A stretch of 47,960 nucleotides of DNA from Bacteroidota bacterium. GTDB taxonomy: Bacteria; Bacteroidota; Ignavibacteria; SZUA-365. The translations under genes and the position numbers were made by a program. Numbering within the stretch: the first letter of the stretch is position 1; each line of letters begins with the position of its first letter. Positions 16,687-27,391 of the stretch are shown one piece after another. The stretch lies in assembly GCA_003246455.1 (NCBI GenBank), contig QKAF01000153.1:1-47960 (forward strand), written 5' to 3'. The notes beneath the pieces were generated by a model. It searched no databases, was not told the DNA's origin, and saw only the letters and a program-made list of their open reading frames with translations.

Positions 16687-18072
16687 TCACTGCCAGTGCG
16701 TGAGCACGGGCCAGATCAGCAGCAGCAATGAAAGGATGAAGAAAAACACCTGCATGGGGAGATGCCATCTGAACCAGCGTTCGAACGGAATTTTCGCCAT
16801 GGCGAGCGTGCCGATGGTGACTCCGGACGTCGGGATGATCATGTTCGTGAAACCGTCACCCAGCTGGTAGGCGAGCACGGCCGTCTGACGCGTGATACCC
16901 GAGAGGTCGGCCAGAGGCCCCATCAGCGGCATGGTCAGCGCGGCCTTGGTGGAGCCCGAGGGGATAAAGAAATTCAGCGCCATCTGCATGACGTACATGG
17001 CATCCGCCGAGAGGATTCGCGGGAGATTCGACGTCATGGTCGCGAGCCCGTGAAGAATCGTGTCCATGATATGGCCGTTCTCCAGCACGATCAGGATTCC
17101 GCCGGCGAAGGCGACCACCAGCGCGGCGGAGGCCATGTCCTTCACCCCGAGGATGAAATTCTTCGCCAGCGTGTTCGGGCTCTGTCCCGCGACGATCCCC
17201 GAGAGGATGCCCATCGCGAGAAACAGCGCCGAGAGCTCGCTGATGTACCACCCGAACAGCGACACGCCGAGAATCATCCCGATCACGCCGGCGAGCAGCA
17301 CAATCAGGCTCAGCATGTGCCGAACCGTGAAAGTTCCGAGTTCGCTCTGCTGCCGCAGAATTTCCTCGCGCCGCTTGCGGTCGAATTCGTACATGGGACT
17401 GCGGGTCGGCTCCTTCCGGATACGCGCGGCATAGATCATGATCCAGGCCGTGGTGCTCGCGGTAACGATGACCCACACCACGATGCGGTATTCCCAACCC
17501 GAGACCAGCGGAACGCCCGCGAGTCCCTGGGCGATCTGCAAGGTGAACGGATTGAGGAAGGCGCCGGCGAAACCGACACCTGCCGCGAGAAAACTGAGGG
17601 AGATTCCCACGAGACTGTCGTACCCGAGCGAGAGGGCGAGCGGAACGAAGATCAGGACGAAGGGCATCGCCTCCTCGCACATGCCGAAGACGGCGCCGAA
17701 CAGAGAGAAGAAGGTCATCACGATGGGGATGATCAGGATTTCCCTGCCCTTCAGCTTTCGGACCAGCTGGTTTGTCCCCGCGGCAATGGCGCCGGTTTCG
17801 TTGAGTATATAGAAAGCGCCGCCGACGAGGAATATGAACGCGACGATTTCCGCGAGGCGCAGAAACCCGTGCATCGGCGCGGTGAAGACCTCGAGGAGCT
17901 GGGGATTCGATGCTTCGTAACGGAATGAGCCGACGACCGGGACTTCCCGCGTCACGCCCCCCACCTGTTCGCTGACCCGTTCGTACGCACCACCGGGCAC
18001 GATCCATGTCGCCGCCGCGGCGAGGATGATCAGCGTGAAGACGATAACAAATACATCAGGGATTTTTTTCAC
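16687..18072 (-). CDS. YfcC family permease (C4-dicarboxylate carrier-like)
   Basis: A 461-residue membrane protein with about 11-12 hydrophobic helices and the family features WIVPGGAYER near residue 30, the segment EEAMPFVLIFVPLALSLGYD, and NPFTLQIAQ. This is the YfcC/DcuC-like group of putative dicarboxylate or amino-acid carriers; the true substrate is not determinable from sequence. The start is GTG at 18070-18072 and overlaps the stop of the upstream response regulator by four bases (GTGA), so synthesis is translationally coupled. The coupling suggests that the regulator controls uptake or export of its own signal-related compound. Confidence 0.85.
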   Translation of the reverse strand: MKKIPDVFVIVFTLIILAAAATWIVPGGAYERVSEQVGGVTREVPVVGSFRYEASNPQLLEVFTAPMHGFLRLAEIVAFIFLVGGAFYILNETGAIAAGTNQLVRKLKGREILIIPIVMTFFSLFGAVFGMCEEAMPFVLIFVPLALSLGYDSLVGISLSFLAAGVGFAGAFLNPFTLQIAQGLAGVPLVSGWEYRIVVWVIVTASTTAWIMIYAARIRKEPTRSPMYEFDRKRREEILRQQSELGTFTVRHMLSLIVLLAGVIGMILGVSLFGWYISELSALFLAMGILSGIVAGQSPNTLAKNFILGVKDMASAALVVAFAGGILIVLENGHIMDTILHGLATMTSNLPRILSADAMYVMQMALNFFIPSGSTKAALTMPLMGPLADLSGITRQTAVLAYQLGDGFTNMIIPTSGVTIGTLAMAKIPFERWFRWHLPMQVFFFILSLLLLIWPVLTHWQ

Positions 18073-19499
18073 ATCTGCGGATCCATCAGCCGGTATTCCT
18101 TGACCTTCGTCTGCATGGTCTTGTAGTCGATCTGCAGAATGCGGGCGGCCTTGGCTTTGTTCCAGCCGGTCCGCTTCAGGGTCTCGAGCAGAATCTGCCG
18201 TTCGATCTGCGCGGTATGCTTGCGCACATGATCCTTGAGCGGCACGCCCTGGTCGATATCGGCTTCGTCGATTTCCGCGATGGCGATCGATGCGCGGGCC
18301 CGGCGTTCGGCGTCGAGCTCGAGATCGAGGTGGTCGGTCGTGATGAACTCGTCGGCGAAAAGCACTGCACGGCGCACGACCGCGCGGAGCTGGGCCACGT
18401 TCCCCGGCCAGTTATAGGCCAGCATCTTGTCGAGCGCCTTGGGCGTGAAGCCGTTTATCGACTTGTTGAGCTCCTTGTTGCTCTCCTGGATGAACCGTGT
18501 GGCCAGATAGGGAATGTCGGTCTTCCTCTCGCGGAGGGACGGGACATGGAAGCTGTATTCATTCAGACGGTAGAAGAGATCGGGGCGGAATTCCTTGGTG
18601 TGGATCAGGTCGTGCAGGTCCTTGCTCGTCGACACGATCAGGCGGGCATCCACCGGAATCGGCGTTTCGCTGCCGAGGCGGGTCAGGGTGCGGGTCTGCA
18701 GACTGCGCAGCAGTTTCGACTGAAGCCGCTGGGGAAACGCCGAGATTTCATCGAGGAAGAGCGTGCCGCCATGCGCCTGTTCCCATTTGCCCTGCTGGGC
18801 GTTGGCCGCGCCGCTGAAGGCACCGCGCTCGAATCCGAAGAGCTCGCGCTCCATCATCGTTTCCGACAGGGCATCGCACGCGATGGTGACGAAAGGTTTC
18901 GAGGCACGGGGACTCGCCTCATGCAGCGCTTTCGCTACCAGCGCCTTCCCTGTTCCCGCCTCGCCGGTGACGAGGATATCGAACTTCGTGCCCGCGATGC
19001 GTTTGATGGTGGTGACGAGTTCCATTATGACGTCGCTCATGCCCATCCGCTGCAGCAGTTCGTCCTGCTGCACCACGTGCTCGACTTTGGGTTCCTGGTA
19101 TTTGCGCCGCATCAGGCGCTCGTCGAGAGCCCTGCTGAGGAACTGGATGATCTCCGCGGTTTCGAAGGGCTTGGCAATATAATCGAAGGCCCCCGCCTTC
19201 ATCGCCTCAACGGCGCCGGGCACACCCGCGAGCGCCGTCATGAACATGACCGGGATTTCGGGATTGATGCGCCGCATCCGGAGCATCACTTCCCTGCCGT
19301 CCATCCCCGGCATCAGCACGTCGAGCACGACGGCATCCGGCGTATCGCGCCGAAAAAGCTCGAGCGCGGTGTCACCGTCCATGGCCATCATTGCCGTGAG
19401 TCCCTGCCGCTCAAACAATCGCTTGAGGAGGATGCACATATCCTCTTCATCATCGACGATGAGGATTTTCATTCCGCGGTATTTTTCCAACCCGTCCAT
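18069..19499 (-). CDS. Sigma-54-dependent response regulator (NtrC family), GAFSGA variant
   Basis: A 476-residue activator: receiver domain (residues 10-125, phospho-acceptor Asp60 in VVLDVLMPGMDG), AAA+ domain with Walker A GEAGTGKA (179-186) and Walker B GTLFLDEI, and a Fis-type helix-turn-helix at the C-terminus. The sigma-54 contact loop reads GAFSGA (226-231) rather than GAFTGA; serine is a conservative, tolerated change. The ATG at 19499 has SD AGGAG seven bases upstream. No histidine kinase gene is adjacent, so it is an orphan here. It is the first gene of a two-gene unit with the YfcC permease and diverges from the redox operon that begins at 20038. Confidence 0.93.
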   Translation of the reverse strand: MDGLEKYRGMKILIVDDEEDMCILLKRLFERQGLTAMMAMDGDTALELFRRDTPDAVVLDVLMPGMDGREVMLRMRRINPEIPVMFMTALAGVPGAVEAMKAGAFDYIAKPFETAEIIQFLSRALDERLMRRKYQEPKVEHVVQQDELLQRMGMSDVIMELVTTIKRIAGTKFDILVTGEAGTGKALVAKALHEASPRASKPFVTIACDALSETMMERELFGFERGAFSGAANAQQGKWEQAHGGTLFLDEISAFPQRLQSKLLRSLQTRTLTRLGSETPIPVDARLIVSTSKDLHDLIHTKEFRPDLFYRLNEYSFHVPSLRERKTDIPYLATRFIQESNKELNKSINGFTPKALDKMLAYNWPGNVAQLRAVVRRAVLFADEFITTDHLDLELDAERRARASIAIAEIDEADIDQGVPLKDHVRKHTAQIERQILLETLKRTGWNKAKAARILQIDYKTMQTKVKEYRLMDPQM

Positions 19500-19957: not shown

Positions 19958-19973
19958 TGGCAGGATAGTTGTA
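19958..19973 (+). promoter_or_regulatory. Candidate sigma-54 promoter of the redox operon
   Basis: TGGCAGGATAGTTGTA matches the -24/-12 pattern TGGCACG-N4-TTGCA with the required ten bases between GG (19959-19960) and the -12 G (19971); the -12 C is T. Transcription would start near 19984, about 54 bases before the first gene at 20038. Two sigma-54 activators are encoded in the window, which makes the assignment more likely. Sequence match only. Confidence 0.55.
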
Positions 19974-20037: not shown

Positions 20038-20712
20038 ATGGTTGCCCTATTTGTCATTCTGTTCGTCGTGACGCTGCTCGGCGTCGATCTGCTGATACAG
20101 GCGCGCAGTAAGCAGTATCCCATCATGGCGGCGGCTCCCGCGGGCAAGGCGCTTGCGCCTGAGCGGGAAACGCTGCGCATTCCGAAAAGCGTCTTTTTCC
20201 ATCCCGGTCACACCTGGGCGCGTCTGCAGGACGGTGATTCTCTCGAAGTCGGTATCGATGACTTCGTGCAGAAGGCGCTCGGCGGCATCGACCGGGTGCT
20301 GCTGCCGAACGTCGGAGATTTCGTGCGCCAGGGTGACGCGGTCATCACTGTCGGCCACGCAGGCAAGCAGCTTTCGCTCGTGGCGCCCGCCAGCGGGTAT
20401 GTCCGCGCGGTCAATCGCGACGCGGTCGAAAATCCCGGCATGGTCAGCGAAAATCCCTACCGCGACGGCTGGCTGATGATGATCGAGCCGGCGGAACTCG
20501 CGCGCAATCTCAGCATGCTGCATGTCGCCGAGAATGCCGTGACCTGGATCAAGGATGAAGTGAAGCGTTTCCGTGAGTTTCTCAGCGCAAGTGCCGCCGA
20601 GCCGGCGCTGGTCGGCGAAGCGATGTTCGACGGCGGTGCACCGATGGCCGGCGTGCTCGAACAGCTCGACGATCAGCACGTGCACGATTTCGAGCAGCAG
20701 TTCCTGCGGTAA
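20038..20712 (+). CDS. Membrane-anchored GcvH-fold protein lacking the lipoyl lysine
   Basis: A 224-residue protein. Residues 2-22 form one membrane helix followed by RSK, which by the positive-inside rule puts the rest in the cytoplasm. Residues about 45-155 are clearly related to the glycine cleavage H protein (HPGHTWARL, GIDDFVQKALGGIDRVLLP, VAPASGYVRAVN, NPYRDGW). An ungapped comparison from GDA (residue 99) to APASG with E. coli GcvH places the lipoylated lysine at Gly109; a lysine sits one residue later (Lys110). Normal lipoylation is therefore doubtful. A helical C-terminal extension (155-224) is extra to GcvH. SD AGGAG lies six bases upstream of the ATG. No gcvT or gcvP is nearby; the neighbours are iron-sulfur and quinone-binding subunits, so a structural or electron-transfer role is more likely than glycine cleavage. 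Confidence 0.85.
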   Translation: MVALFVILFVVTLLGVDLLIQARSKQYPIMAAAPAGKALAPERETLRIPKSVFFHPGHTWARLQDGDSLEVGIDDFVQKALGGIDRVLLPNVGDFVRQGDAVITVGHAGKQLSLVAPASGYVRAVNRDAVENPGMVSENPYRDGWLMMIEPAELARNLSMLHVAENAVTWIKDEVKRFREFLSASAAEPALVGEAMFDGGAPMAGVLEQLDDQHVHDFEQQFLR

Positions 20713-20769
20713 GCCGCGGACCCATCGCGTTTACACATTCATTCATCACGGAAATCAGGAGACTGACTC

Positions 20770-21675
20770 ATGCCACACGCCATTCTTGTAGACCTGACCG
20801 AATGCGTGGGATGCGGCGCCTGCAGAGACGCCTGCCAGCAGGTACATCACTTCCCCCAGGAGGAGTGCACACAGCTCGACGCCCACAACTTCACAACCCT
20901 GCGGCAGATTGAAACCGCGGAGGGCGAGGAGGTTTTCGCACGCCAGATGTGCCAGCACTGCCAGGATCCCGCCTGCGCATCCGCCTGCCTGGTCGGCGCG
21001 CTGGAAAAAACCCGCGACGGCGCGGTTACATGGGACACCGACAAATGCATCGGCTGCCGGTACTGCATGGTCGCATGCCCGTTCGATATCCCCAAGTACG
21101 AGTGGAACAGCAACAATCCGAAAGTGCGCAAATGCACGATGTGCTACCAGGAGCGCCATCTCCGCGCCGATGCCACGACCGACAGCGAGGGGTATGTCCT
21201 CGATCGCAGCGGCAAGCGCGTGAGCATCGATGGACGCCTCGTGACCGGCGAAGATCGCGACATGATCGTCGAAATGACGACCAACAGCGAAAGCAAGCGC
21301 GCGACGGCCTGCAGCGTTGCGTGTCCGATGGGAGCGACGGTCTTCGGCGAACGTTCCGCCCTGCTGGCTGAAGCACATCGCCGCCTCCGCGCCAATCCGG
21401 ACACCTACGTGCAGAAAGTCTACGGGCAGAAGGAAGTCGGCGGAACGTCGGTATTCTATCTCTCGAGCATGCCGTTCGAGAAACTCGGGTTCTCGACGAA
21501 GGTCGGCACGGAAGGGCTCCCGGATCGCACCTGGCGCGTCCTCGAAAAACTCCCGGATGTCGTCCTCACGGCCGGCGTCGCGCTCAGCGCCGTGTACTGG
21601 ATCACCAACCGGCGGGAGGACGTACGGAAGTACGAAGAGGAACTGAAGAAACAACGCTCACAACAGAAATCCTGA
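20770..21675 (+). CDS. HybA-like four-cluster [4Fe-4S] protein with C-terminal membrane anchor
   Basis: A 301-residue ferredoxin-type subunit with sixteen cluster cysteines: 12/15/18/22, 61/64/69/73, 93/96/99/103, and 122/125 with 181/185. This is the arrangement of HybA, DmsB and PsrB electron-transfer subunits. A hydrophobic segment at about 262-282 (VVLTAGVALSAVYWI) anchors the C-terminus, as in HybA. Unlike HybA there is no Tat or Sec signal at the N-terminus (the protein starts MPHAILVDLTECVGC) and no upstream in-frame extension, so the clusters should face the cytoplasm. A long insert of about 50 residues separates Cys125 from Cys181. SD AGGAG precedes the ATG. It should pass electrons to or from the NrfD-like subunit encoded ten bases downstream. 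Confidence 0.9.
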   Translation: MPHAILVDLTECVGCGACRDACQQVHHFPQEECTQLDAHNFTTLRQIETAEGEEVFARQMCQHCQDPACASACLVGALEKTRDGAVTWDTDKCIGCRYCMVACPFDIPKYEWNSNNPKVRKCTMCYQERHLRADATTDSEGYVLDRSGKRVSIDGRLVTGEDRDMIVEMTTNSESKRATACSVACPMGATVFGERSALLAEAHRRLRANPDTYVQKVYGQKEVGGTSVFYLSSMPFEKLGFSTKVGTEGLPDRTWRVLEKLPDVVLTAGVALSAVYWITNRREDVRKYEEELKKQRSQQKS

Positions 21676-21685
21676 GGAGGACGCA

Positions 21686-22903
21686 ATGAAACTCTCACTG
21701 TCACGCATCACATTCTGGAAGGCGACAGCGGCGGTGTTCCTCCTCGGCGGACTGGTCACGACGATCATCCGATTCGGCTGGGGACTCGGTGCATCGACCA
21801 ATCTGAGCGACATGACCCCGTGGGGACTGTGGATCGGATTCGACGTGGTCACCGGTGTCGGACTCGCCGCAGGCGGCTTCACGCTGGCCGGCATCGTCCA
21901 TATTTTCCACATCAAGCGCTTTCATCCCATCGTGCGGCCGGCCATCCTGACCGCCTTTCTCGGCTACTGCCTCGTCATCGTCGGACTGCTGTTCGACCTC
22001 GGCCGTCCCTGGGCGATCTGGCATGCGCTGATCTATCAGAATCCGCATTCCGTTCTGTTCGAAGTCGCGATGTGCGTCATGACCTACACCGCCGTACTGG
22101 CCCTGGAGTTTTCTCCGGTCGTCCTCGAGCGGTTCCGTCTGCAGAAGATCCTCAAGGTCGTGAAGGCGATCACCGTCCCCCTCATCATCCTTGGTATTCT
22201 GCTTTCCATGCTGCATCAGTCGTCTCTCGGATCGCTGTACCTGATCGTGCCGCAGAAAATGCATCCGTACTGGTATTCCCCGATGCTCCCCGTCCTGTTT
22301 TTCGTCAGTGCGATTTCGGTGGGACTCGGCATGACGATCGTCGAATCCTATCTGAGCGCCCGCGCATTTCAGAAGACGCTGGAAACACCCCTGCTGCGCG
22401 ATCTCGCGCGCATCATGATCGGCGTCCTGCTGGTCTATTTCATGATGCGCGGCATCGATCTCTTCCGCCGCGATGCACTGGGATACCTTCTCGACGGCAG
22501 TTTCGAAACCTTCATGCTCTACCTGGAGGTCGCCTTCATGCTGGTCATCCCGCTCCTGCTGTTCAACATCCGCGACTGGGGCCGCTCGCGTCAGGGGCTG
22601 TTCTTCACCGCATTTTCCGTGGTGCTCGGCTTCATAACCAACCGTCTCAACGTCACCATGACGTCGCTGGAAGGATATTACCGCGATAATTTCGGGGTCT
22701 CCTACTTCCCGGGAATCGGTGAACTGGCAATCACGATTTCCATCGTCACCGTCGGGTTCGTGATATTCGCGCTCGCCGTGAAGTATCTCCCGATATTCCC
22801 GCATCATGAAGAGGAAACCGTGCTTCGGCTCGACAGCGCTCCCGCGCGCGCGACGTCCGCCTCGATGCACCCGAGCCCGGCATCCGAACTGCGGCGCCAC
22901 TGA
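21686..22903 (+). CDS. HybB/NrfD/PsrC-like quinone-interacting membrane subunit
   Basis: A 405-residue polytopic protein with about nine or ten hydrophobic helices and family features such as MTPWGLWIGFDVVTGVGLAAGG near residue 40, LFDLGRPWAIWHALIYQNPHS near 110 and LHQSSLGSLYLI near 180. NrfD-type proteins exchange electrons between an iron-sulfur subunit and the menaquinone pool. It begins ten bases after the HybA-like gene with SD GAGGAGG, so the two are co-translated partners. No molybdopterin enzyme, hydrogenase large subunit or multihaem cytochrome gene lies in the window, so the catalytic partner is elsewhere or is a protein not recognised as such. Confidence 0.93.
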   Translation: MKLSLSRITFWKATAAVFLLGGLVTTIIRFGWGLGASTNLSDMTPWGLWIGFDVVTGVGLAAGGFTLAGIVHIFHIKRFHPIVRPAILTAFLGYCLVIVGLLFDLGRPWAIWHALIYQNPHSVLFEVAMCVMTYTAVLALEFSPVVLERFRLQKILKVVKAITVPLIILGILLSMLHQSSLGSLYLIVPQKMHPYWYSPMLPVLFFVSAISVGLGMTIVESYLSARAFQKTLETPLLRDLARIMIGVLLVYFMMRGIDLFRRDALGYLLDGSFETFMLYLEVAFMLVIPLLLFNIRDWGRSRQGLFFTAFSVVLGFITNRLNVTMTSLEGYYRDNFGVSYFPGIGELAITISIVTVGFVIFALAVKYLPIFPHHEEETVLRLDSAPARATSASMHPSPASELRRH

Positions 22904-22912
22904 TATACCGGA

Positions 22913-22975
22913 GCCGGCCGCGCGACGCTGTTTTCGCTGCATGCGCACCCCGCAGCAGCCTGCGTCGCGGCCGGC
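22913..22975. repeat. Long GC-rich inverted repeat between hybB-like and second GcvH-like genes
   Basis: The left arm 22913-22928 pairs with the right arm 22962-22975 over 14 base pairs, with two extra bases bulged in the left arm and a loop of about 33 bases. No clear T-run follows at once. It could be a partial terminator or an mRNA-stability hairpin that lowers expression of the downstream gene relative to the membrane subunits. Confidence 0.5.
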
Positions 22976-23035
22976 ACCATTGATGAAACCCGTTTTCCTG
23001 TTTTTCAAATCCGGATGAATGCAAGGCGGTCGGCA

Positions 23036-23818
23036 ATGAGCGTCATAATCGATACATCGTGCGATAACTGCGTCTGGGTGACCGCGGGTGTCCTCAACTA
23101 CAAGTTGTGCGACAGGGATTTCGACTGCGAACACTGTCCCCTCGACGCAGCACTACGCGATCGCGCGAGCAGTTGTATGGATGATGAAACGGCACTATCA
23201 CTGAAGAGACTGGATTTTCCCGACTGGGAAAATCTGCCGGTTGAAGTCCAGCCGCTGCTGGAACCTCTGCATTCGATGCAGATCTGCCAGAGTGCCCGGT
23301 ACTCTGCGCGTCATGTCTGGGTGCGCCTCCTCGCCTCAGGCATGGTCCGTATGGGCCTTGATGGTTTTGCCGCCGCCTTGCTTCCGGATGATGCACAGCT
23401 GGTAACGGTCGCACACAACACTACGGTGCGGGAAGGGGATGCATTTGGATGGGTCTACGCGTGGAATCAGACGCTTCCTCTTCCTGCCCCGATATCCGGT
23501 GTCGTGCTCTGCCGTGACGGCGGTCATCTTGATTCGATCGACGCGCTGCGAAAAAACCCGTATCGAAACGGCTGCCTGCTGACGCTGTCGCCGTCGGTCG
23601 GCACGCTCGCGACCGCGCGGGTCTACTCCCCCGCGGTCCATCAGCGACGGATCCAGCGGCACTGCCGCGCCATCGTCTCTCGCATTTCGCGGGTGATGTC
23701 CCATCCCGAACTCGGCCTCTGCCTCAATGACGGCGGGGAACCCGTGGCCTCTCTTTCCCAGATGCTGGGCCAGGACCGCTACTGGAAAATGATCCGGCAT
23801 TTCATTGCAGGAGATTAA
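23036..23818 (+). CDS. Cysteine-rich GcvH-fold protein lacking the lipoyl lysine
   Basis: A protein of about 260 residues. The ATG at 23036 is preferred (GGCGG about six bases upstream); 23015 is an alternative adding seven residues. The N-terminal region has a cysteine cluster C9-x2-C12-x12-C25-x5-C31-x2-C34 (YKLCDRDFDCEHCPLDAAL), which may bind a metal or an iron-sulfur cluster. Residues about 78-185 match the H-protein fold (ARHVWVRLLASGMVRMGLDGF, LPAPISGVVLC, NPYRNGCLL). An ungapped comparison with GcvH places the lipoyl lysine at Asn144, so lipoylation is excluded at that site. It is soluble, with no signal or helix anchor. It lies between the HybAB-like pair and the haem-containing sensor kinase, which suggests a link between the redox module and its regulation, or a role as an accessory subunit. 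Confidence 0.8.
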   Translation: MSVIIDTSCDNCVWVTAGVLNYKLCDRDFDCEHCPLDAALRDRASSCMDDETALSLKRLDFPDWENLPVEVQPLLEPLHSMQICQSARYSARHVWVRLLASGMVRMGLDGFAAALLPDDAQLVTVAHNTTVREGDAFGWVYAWNQTLPLPAPISGVVLCRDGGHLDSIDALRKNPYRNGCLLTLSPSVGTLATARVYSPAVHQRRIQRHCRAIVSRISRVMSHPELGLCLNDGGEPVASLSQMLGQDRYWKMIRHFIAGD

Positions 23819-23886: not shown

Positions 23887-25494
23887 ATGCGTCTCTATCA
23901 CACGCTCAGCTTCAAGCTCATCGCCCTGATTTTCTTCGCCCTTTTCGTGGTGACGCTCGGCGTGAGCTATGTTCATGTCGAAGCGCAGAGTTCCTTTCTC
24001 GAGCGGACGGTCCATCTCTGTGCCGAACGCGCCAGCGCCTTCGCCAAGGCGGCCCTCCTCCAGGGGATGCAGGAAAACCACCCCGACGTCATTCGCCAGA
24101 CCATCTCCGATATCGGCGTCGCCCGTGGCATCGAACGCGTCAGCATCTATGACAAGAACGGCCGCATCGCCTACTCCTCCGTCGAATCGCAGGTCAACCG
24201 CGTCGTGGACACCAGGGATCTTGCATGCGCACCGTGTCACGGCGAAAGCAGCAATTTCACACAGACCAGCAGTCAGGAATTCATGCGCATCTACGATTCC
24301 GACGCCGGTCACCGCGTGCTGGGACTGATCACCCCGATCAACAACATGCAGTCCTGTTCCGACGCCTCCTGTCACGTGCACCCCGCGGAACAGACGGTGC
24401 TCGGCGTTCTCGACGTGCAGATGTCGCTCGAGAGCATCGACGCGCAGGCGAAAAACGTCCGTGTGGTCGTGATCATTTCCTCGCTCCTGACCTTTATCGT
24501 CCTTGCCGGTGCGACGGCGGTATTCGTTTTCTTCTTCGTGCACAAACCGGTGAAATCGGTGATCGAGGGAACGCACAAGCTCGCCACCGGCGATCTGGGG
24601 CATACGATTCCTCTGCGCAGAAAGGACGAACTCGGACAGCTCGTGAAATCGTTCAACAGAATGGCGCATGAGCTCGAACGAACCAAGGGCCAGCTGGTCG
24701 AATGGTCGAATACGCTTGAGGACAAGGTCGCCTCGAAGACCGAGGAACTCAACAAGGTGCAGGTGCAGATCCTGCACATGGAGAAAATGGCGTCTCTCGG
24801 CAAACTCAGCTCCGTGATCGCGCACGAGCTCAACAATCCCCTCGCGGGCATTCTCACGTACGCGCGGCTGATAGAAAAGCGGCTCGGTGCGGAACATGTC
24901 GATGAAAAGAAATACGCCGCGATGCAGAAAGACATTGTGCTCATCGCGGATGAGGCGCGGCGCTGCGGCGATATCGTAAAGAACCTGCTCTTCTTCGCGC
25001 GGGGTCGCGAGGGAGAGTACCGCCAGGCCGACCTCAACGAGGTCATCGAGAAAACCATCAAACTCGTCCACCACAAAATCGACCTGTACGAAATCCGTCT
25101 CGATGTGCATGTGCCGGTGGAACCCCTGCTCGCGACCTGCGATCAGAATTTGATTCAGCAGACCGTGCTTGCGATCATCATGAACGCCATCGAAGCCATG
25201 CCCGAGGGCGGGCGGCTTTCCGTCTTCCTGTCCTCCGACAATGGCGGCGCGACGATCCGCATCACCGATACCGGCATCGGCATTTCCGAATCCGACCAGC
25301 GGATGATTTTCGAACCGTTTTTCACCACGAAGGAAGAAGGCCACGGCACGGGACTGGGACTTTCTGTCGCCTACGGCATCATCCAGAGTCACGACGGACG
25401 CATCACGGTGGAAAGCGCTCCGGGCAAGGGCGCGACGTTCACCATTTCCATCCCCATTTTCGGTCCCGCATCATATCGGCAGGAGCACGCATGA
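23887..25494 (+). CDS. Sensor histidine kinase with periplasmic haem c motifs
   Basis: A 535-residue inner-membrane kinase. Helix 1 (about 8-28) and helix 2 (about 194-218) enclose a periplasmic domain with CAPCH (114-118), a canonical CxxCH haem-attachment site, and CSDASCH (157-163), a CX4CH variant. A HAMP domain (about 219-272), a coiled stretch, HisKA with His313 (IAHELNNP) and an HATPase domain with GTGLGLSVAYGI follow. The sensor half should therefore bind one or two c-type haems and report redox state or a small gaseous or anionic ligand. SD GAGGAG precedes the ATG. The stop overlaps the ATG of the response regulator (ATGA). It lies directly downstream of the redox genes and probably controls them through that regulator. 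Confidence 0.93.
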   Translation: MRLYHTLSFKLIALIFFALFVVTLGVSYVHVEAQSSFLERTVHLCAERASAFAKAALLQGMQENHPDVIRQTISDIGVARGIERVSIYDKNGRIAYSSVESQVNRVVDTRDLACAPCHGESSNFTQTSSQEFMRIYDSDAGHRVLGLITPINNMQSCSDASCHVHPAEQTVLGVLDVQMSLESIDAQAKNVRVVVIISSLLTFIVLAGATAVFVFFFVHKPVKSVIEGTHKLATGDLGHTIPLRRKDELGQLVKSFNRMAHELERTKGQLVEWSNTLEDKVASKTEELNKVQVQILHMEKMASLGKLSSVIAHELNNPLAGILTYARLIEKRLGAEHVDEKKYAAMQKDIVLIADEARRCGDIVKNLLFFARGREGEYRQADLNEVIEKTIKLVHHKIDLYEIRLDVHVPVEPLLATCDQNLIQQTVLAIIMNAIEAMPEGGRLSVFLSSDNGGATIRITDTGIGISESDQRMIFEPFFTTKEEGHGTGLGLSVAYGIIQSHDGRITVESAPGKGATFTISIPIFGPASYRQEHA

Positions 25495-26849
25495 CCGCCT
25501 TCGACCCCTCGGATATCACCATCATGATCGTCGACGACGAGCCCAGCGTACGCCAGTCCCTGGCGGCCTGGTTCGAAGACGACGGCTACGGCATCGTCAC
25601 GGCACAGAACGCCGCCGAAGCGCTGCAGTGCATGCAGGATCACACTGTGGATATCATTCTCCTCGACATCAAGATGCCGGGAATGGACGGGCTTGCGCTG
25701 CAGGATCGCATCCGTGAATTCAACAAGGAAGTCATCATCATCATCATCACGGCGTTCGCGACGGTCGACACCGCGGTCCGCGCGCTCAAGGCGGGAGCGT
25801 TCGATTACACCACAAAACCCGTGGACCCTGACGAACTGTCGCATCTCGTGCACAACGCCGTCGAAAAAATCCGGCTCCAGCGGGAGAATCTCGCCCTGCG
25901 CGAAAGCATCGACCACCTTCAGTTCGTCGACGACATCATCGGGGAAAGCGCGCCCATGCAGCAGGTGCTCGAACTGGTGAAAACCGTCGCGCCGACCGAC
26001 TCGACCGTGCTCATCCTCGGTGAGAGCGGCACCGGAAAGGAGCTGATCGCCCGCGCGATTCACATGAACAGCCGCCGACGATACTTCCCCATCATTCCGG
26101 TCAACTGCGGCGCGCTGCCCGAAACGCTGCTGGAAAGCGAGCTTTTCGGTCACGAAAAAGGGGCATTCACCGGCGCGCAGTATCGCCGCAAGGGGAAATT
26201 CGAGATGGCGCAGGGCGGCTCGCTTTTCCTCGACGAGATCGGGACGCTGAGTCTGAAATCCCAGATCGATCTGCTGCGCGTCCTCGAAGACCGTGAATTT
26301 CACCGTCTCGGCGGCGAGCGGAGTGTGAAGGCCGATTTCCGGCTGATCTGCGCGACAAACGTCGATCTGGAACGCGAGGTGAAAACCGCGATTTTCCGTG
26401 AGGATCTGTACTACCGCATCAACGTCTTCACGATTCACCTGCCGGCGCTCCGGGAGCGTCGCGCCGACATTCCCCTGCTCGCCACGCATTTCGTCCAGCG
26501 GCACGCCCGGTCGATGAACCGCGCAACACCTGAGCTCAGCACCGAAGCCATGGACGTCCTGCTGACACACGACTGGCCGGGGAATGTGCGGGAGCTGGAG
26601 AACGCCATTGAACGCGCAGTCGTCATCAACAAGTCGGGCGTCATCACGCCCGCGGATCTGCCCCTGCAGATCGGTCGAAACAGCGCTCCCCCGCGAGGCA
26701 CCTCTCTTTCCGAGATGGAGAAGGAACACATCCAGCACATGCTGGACGAGAACGCCTGGAACATCTCCCGCACCGCGGAAAAGCTCGGGATCGACAGGGT
26801 CACCCTGTACAACAAACTCGAGAAGTACGGTCTGAAACGGCCCGAGTAA
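25491..26849 (+). CDS. Sigma-54-dependent response regulator (NtrC family) of the redox locus
   Basis: A 452-residue activator with a receiver domain (Asp59 in IILLDIKMPGMDG), an AAA+ domain with Walker A GESGTGKE (177-184), the sigma-54 contact loop GAFTGA (224-229) and Walker B GGSLFLDEIG, and a C-terminal Fis-type helix-turn-helix (NISRTAEKLGIDRVTLYNKLEKYG). All motifs are intact. It overlaps the upstream kinase gene by four bases, so the two form a cognate pair. The candidate sigma-54 promoter and palindromes upstream of 20038 are its most obvious target. Confidence 0.95.
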   Translation: MTAFDPSDITIMIVDDEPSVRQSLAAWFEDDGYGIVTAQNAAEALQCMQDHTVDIILLDIKMPGMDGLALQDRIREFNKEVIIIIITAFATVDTAVRALKAGAFDYTTKPVDPDELSHLVHNAVEKIRLQRENLALRESIDHLQFVDDIIGESAPMQQVLELVKTVAPTDSTVLILGESGTGKELIARAIHMNSRRRYFPIIPVNCGALPETLLESELFGHEKGAFTGAQYRRKGKFEMAQGGSLFLDEIGTLSLKSQIDLLRVLEDREFHRLGGERSVKADFRLICATNVDLEREVKTAIFREDLYYRINVFTIHLPALRERRADIPLLATHFVQRHARSMNRATPELSTEAMDVLLTHDWPGNVRELENAIERAVVINKSGVITPADLPLQIGRNSAPPRGTSLSEMEKEHIQHMLDENAWNISRTAEKLGIDRVTLYNKLEKYGLKRPE

Positions 26850-26857
26850 TACCCGGT

Positions 26858-27391
26858 ATGAGGGAAGTGACCGTCATACCCCTGGGATCGCACCCCCGCG
26901 ACGTCGAGCTCGAGCAGCTGAAAACGGGCATCGAGCGGGTCATTTCCGTGGAAATCACCATCGCCCCGCGTCCTCTGGATATCGACGGCGCACTCGACGT
27001 GTCCCGAAAACAGTACCATTCCACCTCCATACTGGCGACGCTGCTGCAGCAGTCCGACGTGCAGACCGAGCGGGTGCTCGGCATCACGCCGTTCGATCTT
27101 TTTGTCCCTGTTCTCACCTTCGTATTCGGGCAGGCCCAGCTCAATGACCGCGCCGCGGTCTTCTCCACCTTCCGTCTTCATAACGAGTTCTACGGTCTTC
27201 CCCGGTCAGGAGAACTCCTCATGGGCCGCTGCATCAAGGAAGCGCTGCACGAGCTGGGGCACACGTTCGGACTGCGGCACTGTATCACGCAGCCCTGCGT
27301 GATGAACTCTTCCACCTACGTCGAAGACATCGACCTGAAACCGGCGGATTTCTGTTTGCCTTGCCGAGAGCACCTGGGAGTCGTACTATAG
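26858..27391 (+). CDS. amzA: Archaemetzincin-type zinc metalloprotease
   Basis: A 177-residue protein with the archaemetzincin signature: HELGHTFGLRH (His131, Glu132, His135, His141), the adjacent Cys142, Cys147, and Cys166-x2-Cys169 that bind a second structural zinc. The length is typical of AmzA. There is no signal peptide, so it is cytoplasmic. Family members are zinc-dependent aminopeptidase-like enzymes of uncertain natural substrate. It begins eight bases after the response regulator gene on the same strand, so it is likely to be co-transcribed with it, although a functional link to redox control is not obvious. All zinc ligands and the catalytic glutamate are present. Confidence 0.92.
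   Translation: MREVTVIPLGSHPRDVELEQLKTGIERVISVEITIAPRPLDIDGALDVSRKQYHSTSILATLLQQSDVQTERVLGITPFDLFVPVLTFVFGQAQLNDRAAVFSTFRLHNEFYGLPRSGELLMGRCIKEALHELGHTFGLRHCITQPCVMNSSTYVEDIDLKPADFCLPCREHLGVVL

Follow-up and report, generated by a model that had tools for sequence, protein, structure and literature searches.

Two proteins with the H-protein fold but without the lipoyl-accepting lysine, here referred to as GcvH1 and GcvH2, are encoded in a conserved seven-gene cluster of a Bacteroidota bacterium of the class Ignavibacteria (contig QKAF01000153.1; the window analysed is the whole stretch of 47,960 nucleotides). The genes are arranged in the order GcvH1, HmcB-like Fe-S protein, HmcC-like NrfD-type membrane subunit, GcvH2, diheme-motif kinase, NtrC-type regulator, and archaemetzincin. 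With moderate confidence, we propose that these lipoate-free H-proteins have a docking role in a redox module that is controlled by sigma-54 and sensed through haem.

Absence of the lipoyl lysine from GcvH1 and GcvH2

GcvH1 (positions 20038–20712, forward strand; 224 amino acids) comprises an N-terminal membrane helix, a lysine-free GCV_H domain, and a C-terminal tail with a DGG sequence at residues 198–200. GcvH2 (23015–23818, forward strand; 267 amino acids) carries an N-terminal four-cysteine motif (C19, C32, C38, and C41), a lysine-free GCV_H domain, and DGG at residues 239–241; gene starts are the output of a simple ORF caller, and translation of GcvH2 may begin at Met8. Both proteins matched GCV_H (PF01597) above the Pfam cut-off of 22.2 bits (69.5 bits for GcvH1 and 29.6 bits for GcvH2), and no other family scored above its cut-off in the Pfam profile search. 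The AlphaFold models have a mean pLDDT of 84 each, with low confidence in the N-terminal cysteine region of GcvH2, and their best PDB matches are H-protein entries, with target-normalised TM-scores of up to 0.94 (GcvH1) and 0.87 (GcvH2). As modelled, both proteins adopt the H-protein fold.

The original prediction held that neither protein has the lipoyl-accepting lysine, and this was borne out by gapless alignments and by the absence of the lysine across the family. In a joint alignment with canonical GcvH sequences, the lipoyl-lysine column is occupied by Gly109 in GcvH1, as had been proposed, and by Asn151 in GcvH2; the Asn144 named earlier is the same residue counted from Met8. Both proteins aligned gap-free across the lipoyl site with solved H-proteins in phmmer searches, and a one-residue gap that would restore the lysine was found neither there nor in the joint alignment nor across the family, and is ruled out. 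Lysine occupies this column in all 14 canonical sequences (12 chosen, the genome's own GcvH, and one more from among the hits), compared with 9 of 128 GcvH1-type and other relatives and 0 of 44 GcvH2-type sequences (Fisher's p ∼1e-13, a guide only, since the rows are related and some are near-duplicates, e.g. L070/L106 and L071/L123, so that the p-value overstates independence). In the 128 relatives, Gly, Asn, Asp, and Ser predominate, which fits a tight hairpin turn, and in the GcvH1 model the site forms the turn joining strands 101–107 and 110–115. No relative combines this lysine with the Glu that is conserved at position −3 in canonical GcvH, which is missing from all nine lysine-bearing relatives.

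It is very improbable that GcvH1 and GcvH2 continue to receive lipoate, whether on Lys110 or on a different lysine, and act like LbpA of the Hdr-like sulfur-oxidation system. Lys110 of GcvH1 adjoins the canonical site, and the genome contains lipA and several genes of the BPL/LplA/LipB family. However, position 110 is Arg in three members of the same cluster type with 72–84% identity to GcvH1 (L090, L091, and L093), Arg is commoner than Lys at this position across the 128 rows (54 versus 33), the Glu at −3 is absent, and GcvH2 has Asn-Gln at the site. Judged from these substitutions, Lys110 is not a conserved acceptor, and a role as a shifted acceptor is rejected. LbpA likewise functions outside glycine cleavage, and some relatives of GcvH1 and GcvH2 also adjoin or are fused to Hdr subunits; the lipoyl lysine is, however, strictly conserved in LbpA (PMC6067878), and its absence here rules out LbpA membership. 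No Hdr-like genes were found within the seven-gene cluster.

The 4.1-Mb genome (98% complete) contains only three GCV_H matches, namely GcvH1, GcvH2, and a protein encoded on contig 16 in which the lipoyl lysine is present. A search for glycine cleavage and lipoate genes located four BPL/LplA/LipB-family matches as well as gcvP, gcvT, and lipA, the latter three away from the cluster, indicating, together with the lysine-bearing protein, that GcvH1 and GcvH2 are not the glycine-cleavage carrier of this genome. Thus, GcvH1 and GcvH2 share with canonical GcvH a common fold and a gapless alignment, but they lack the lipoyl lysine and the flanking Glu, carry an extra membrane helix or cysteine motif as well as the DGG tail, are not located near gcvP or gcvT, and score below the TIGR00527 equivalog cut-off (68.7 and 26.7 bits against 115.85).

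It had also been argued that the missing lysines reflect a function residing in the fold and not chance decay. This part of the argument is supported: several phyla retain the lysine-free state, gene order is conserved, and W60, G72, G99, P117, and DGG are near-invariant. Although a catalytic residue has been lost, the reading frames are intact, and the possibility that these are functionless, decaying GcvH copies is negligible given this conservation, by which pseudogene decay is ruled out. The accompanying claim of two independent losses is not supported. A DGG tail that canonical GcvH lacks is present in each paralogue, and a tree of 126 columns (no outgroup; bootstrap not fully settled) has a 100/100 branch that separates canonical GcvH from GcvH1, GcvH2, and the other lysine-free forms. 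The common tail favours a single loss before duplication, and one old loss followed by duplication appears simpler than two losses; two losses would fit a root placed between GcvH2 and the remaining sequences.

Gene content and distribution of the cluster

The HmcB/HybA-like ferredoxin-type subunit (20770–21675, forward strand) and the HmcC/HybB-type NrfD-like membrane subunit (21686–22903, forward strand) were identified by profile matches, including PF13247 (54 bits) for the former and PF03916 (94 bits) for the latter. The pairing of an Fe-S subunit with an NrfD-like membrane subunit is shared with the HmcB/HmcC and HybA/HybB modules of the NrfD-like family (PMC8076601), but all equivalog cut-offs were missed (HmcB, 224.6 of 420; HmcC, 336.3 of 550; HybA, 184.7 of 263; and HybB, 301 of 450), and no hydrogenase or cytochrome subunit was seen in the present cluster. 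In addition, the Fe-S protein lacks the Tat signal that is present in HmcB-like relatives of sister clusters, and it is predicted to reside on the cytoplasmic face. By analogy with the family (PMC8076601), the NrfD-like subunit probably exchanges electrons with quinone.

The same gene order was found in a further eight genomes from this class (G004, G097, G078, G039, G120, G132, G062, and G093), and a partial cluster is present in two more (G055 and G156). A scan of species genomes, which was biased towards GcvH1-like members by its query of five close GcvH1 sequences, yielded 161 relatives of GcvH1. The 80 loci retained span Ignavibacteria, Kryptonia, Calditrichota, Acidobacteria, Poribacteria, Krumholzibacteria, and Deltaproteobacteria, and many of the non-delta loci keep the full gene set. 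One GcvH1-type gene (L069, 4947–5564) lies in an IMG/VR contig listed as viral, which possibly represents bacterial DNA in that collection. In the window, a second NtrC-type response regulator gene (18069–19499, reverse strand) is divergent from GcvH1 and has no kinase gene beside it; it adjoins the cluster in close relatives only (L088–L093). Searches of open-licence papers found nothing on this cluster, on an archaemetzincin with two-component genes, or on GcvH in Desulfovibrio sigma-54 regulons, and the conserved gene set around lipoate-free H-proteins is apparently undescribed.

The GCV_H domain also occurs in other settings. In sister clusters of the class (L081–L083, L085, and L184–L186), it follows a receiver domain within a single fused protein, and L085 (1365–5265) encodes two neighbouring fusions (Response_reg, 107 and 89 bits; GCV_H, 72 and 57 bits). 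The receiver–GCV_H fusions of L076 (13165–17048), L085, and L184–L186, in which the GCV_H domain is lysine-free, are accompanied by a diheme-motif kinase and HmcB/HmcC relatives, without an archaemetzincin. Two deltaproteobacterial loci (L140, 7890–8987; L160, 7860–8951) encode a fusion of GCV_H with an HdrC-like part, with HdrA- and HdrB-like genes adjoining; archaemetzincin, regulator, and kinase genes are divergent to these fusions. In the Desulfobacterales form, a GcvH whose N-terminus is rich in cysteine is encoded together with the kinase, regulator, and archaemetzincin. This form has no HmcB/HmcC, and its kinases lack the haem motifs, indicating that neither is obligatory.

These settings bear on the main alternative, that the GcvH-like proteins are signalling adaptors rather than electron-transfer parts, binding the kinase or regulator and informing the two-component system about a metabolite or about the state of the NrfD/Fe-S module. 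The presence of receiver fusions in two sister-cluster proteins would suit such a role, as would the retention of kinase, regulator, archaemetzincin, and GcvH together in Desulfobacterales without HmcB/HmcC. On the other hand, the HdrC fusions beside HdrA and HdrB in other Deltaproteobacteria represent an electron-transfer setting, most other loci have HmcB/HmcC alongside GcvH, and the sigma-54-like sites described below make the GcvH genes look like the output of the system. We regard signalling adaptors as a rather unlikely candidate, and retain docking parts of a redox module as the preferred reading.

Haem-motif kinase, NtrC-type regulator, and promoter-like sites

The membrane histidine kinase gene (23887–25494, forward strand) encodes CAPCH and CSDASCH sequences, corresponding to CxxCH and CxxxxCH, in the predicted periplasmic part. 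The CxxCH in the predicted sensor part is the hallmark of a c-type haem sensor kinase. Exactly one motif of each type was found in the N-terminal part of 56 of 67 kinases, the remaining 11 being of the Desulfobacterales type, and both motifs also occur in 11 further kinases of the class. Sensor domains with haem c have been described in Geobacter and make up the sCache_heme family (PMC12889525). A periplasmic c-type CxxCH in a sensory kinase is common to the present proteins and the sCache_heme (DUF3365/Tll0287) domains, including GSU0582 and GSU0935 (PMC12889525), but a second site, CxxxxCH, is additionally conserved in the cluster kinases, and the Pfam profile search reported no match of the cluster kinase to the sCache_heme family. 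On the strength of these motifs, the kinase is a putative haem-binding protein.

The adjoining NtrC-type sigma-54-dependent response regulator gene (25491–26849, forward strand) was assigned from profile matches and gene neighbourhood. A sigma-54 (−24/−12) promoter-like site, TGGCAGGATAGTTGTA (19958–19973, forward strand), is located 64 bp before the start codon of GcvH1. It has two mismatches to the consensus and is not significant alone over the whole window, so the argument for sigma-54 control rests on the relatives. When the 330 bases around each start were scored against the −24/−12 consensus with a threshold of 21 or more of 23.5, 42 of 90 first GcvH genes had a strong site, compared with 8 of 618 control ORFs (1.3%; p = 2e-34); in roughly half of the loci, none was present. 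Most of the strong sites are 52 to 122 bases upstream, matching the position of the site in the window, and the same scoring detected none at the HmcB, HmcC, regulator, or archaemetzincin genes. The NtrC-type regulator may act on the promoter of the first GcvH gene.

The DGG tail, the archaemetzincin, and a proposed mechanism

The last gene of the cluster (26858–27391, forward strand) encodes an archaemetzincin (peptidase M54), in which the defining motif of these enzymes, HExxHxxGxxHCx4CxM...CxxC, is present; very little is known about their biological importance (PMC3427221). The motif is present in 67 of the 68 M54 proteins of the set, with 14–19 residues allowed before the last CxxC. The active-site and cysteine motif is common to known archaemetzincins (PMC3427221), whereas the gene here accompanies those for a two-component system and GcvH-like proteins, a link not found in the open-licence papers searched.

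DGG follows the domain in 157 of 172 sequences (114 of 128 GcvH1-type and other relatives and 43 of 44 GcvH2-type) compared with 0 of 14 canonical sequences, and it ranks among the most conserved positions in both paralogues. Of the 15 sequences without DGG, the majority either are receiver fusions or have SGG, TGG, or EGG instead. Residues 191–200 around the DGG of GcvH1 are modelled with low confidence (mean pLDDT of 50). Among the genomes searched, an archaemetzincin was found in all 12 with a DGG-tailed GcvH versus none of 14 with only DGG-less receiver fusions (p = 1e-7). Within the class, it is present in 11 of 11 genomes with the cluster and 2 of 38 without (p = 3e-9); one of these two exceptions (G014) has a DGG-tailed GcvH, and the other (G184) contains the kinase, regulator, and archaemetzincin, with no lysine-free GcvH found. 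Each archaemetzincin locus read in the class adjoins this type of kinase and regulator, and two distant archaemetzincins outside the class (L182 and L183) do not adjoin a kinase and regulator of this type. A third arrangement (L178, 9919–15999; L176, L177, and L181) comprises a kinase, archaemetzincin, and regulator facing DGG-tailed GcvH-like genes, with distant HmcB/HmcC relatives and one GcvH match below the Pfam cut-off.

In the proposed mechanism, the kinase would sense a redox state or a small ligand via two periplasmic c-type haems and phosphorylate the NtrC-type regulator, which would switch on the operon. GcvH1, HmcB, HmcC, and GcvH2 would then assemble as a membrane module; within it, electrons would pass between quinone and the NrfD-like subunit by way of the cytoplasmic Fe-S protein. 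With no lipoyl arm to swing, the H-protein folds may have a docking role, in which GcvH1 is held by its membrane helix and the cysteine motif of GcvH2 possibly carries a metal site. The archaemetzincin might mature or remove the DGG-tailed H-proteins, which is the least certain step; our confidence declines from haem binding by the kinase, through action of the regulator on the promoter and docking of GcvH1 and GcvH2 to HmcB and HmcC, to action of the archaemetzincin on the tail. The full version, in which a diheme sensor kinase drives lipoate-free H-proteins as its sigma-54 output and the partner archaemetzincin cuts the DGG tail, thereby maturing or switching off the NrfD-type module, as a widespread and undescribed system, is speculative and rather doubtful.

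From the PF01597 domain, GcvH1 and GcvH2 would be placed in one-carbon metabolism and counted as lipoate users. The evidence presented here instead assigns them, in several phyla, to redox signalling and to electron transfer at the membrane, and it makes testable the idea that an H-protein fold can be used in the absence of its cofactor. The DGG tail is also a concrete substrate candidate for archaemetzincins and, if it is indeed cut, would represent a defined substrate for the bacterial enzymes.
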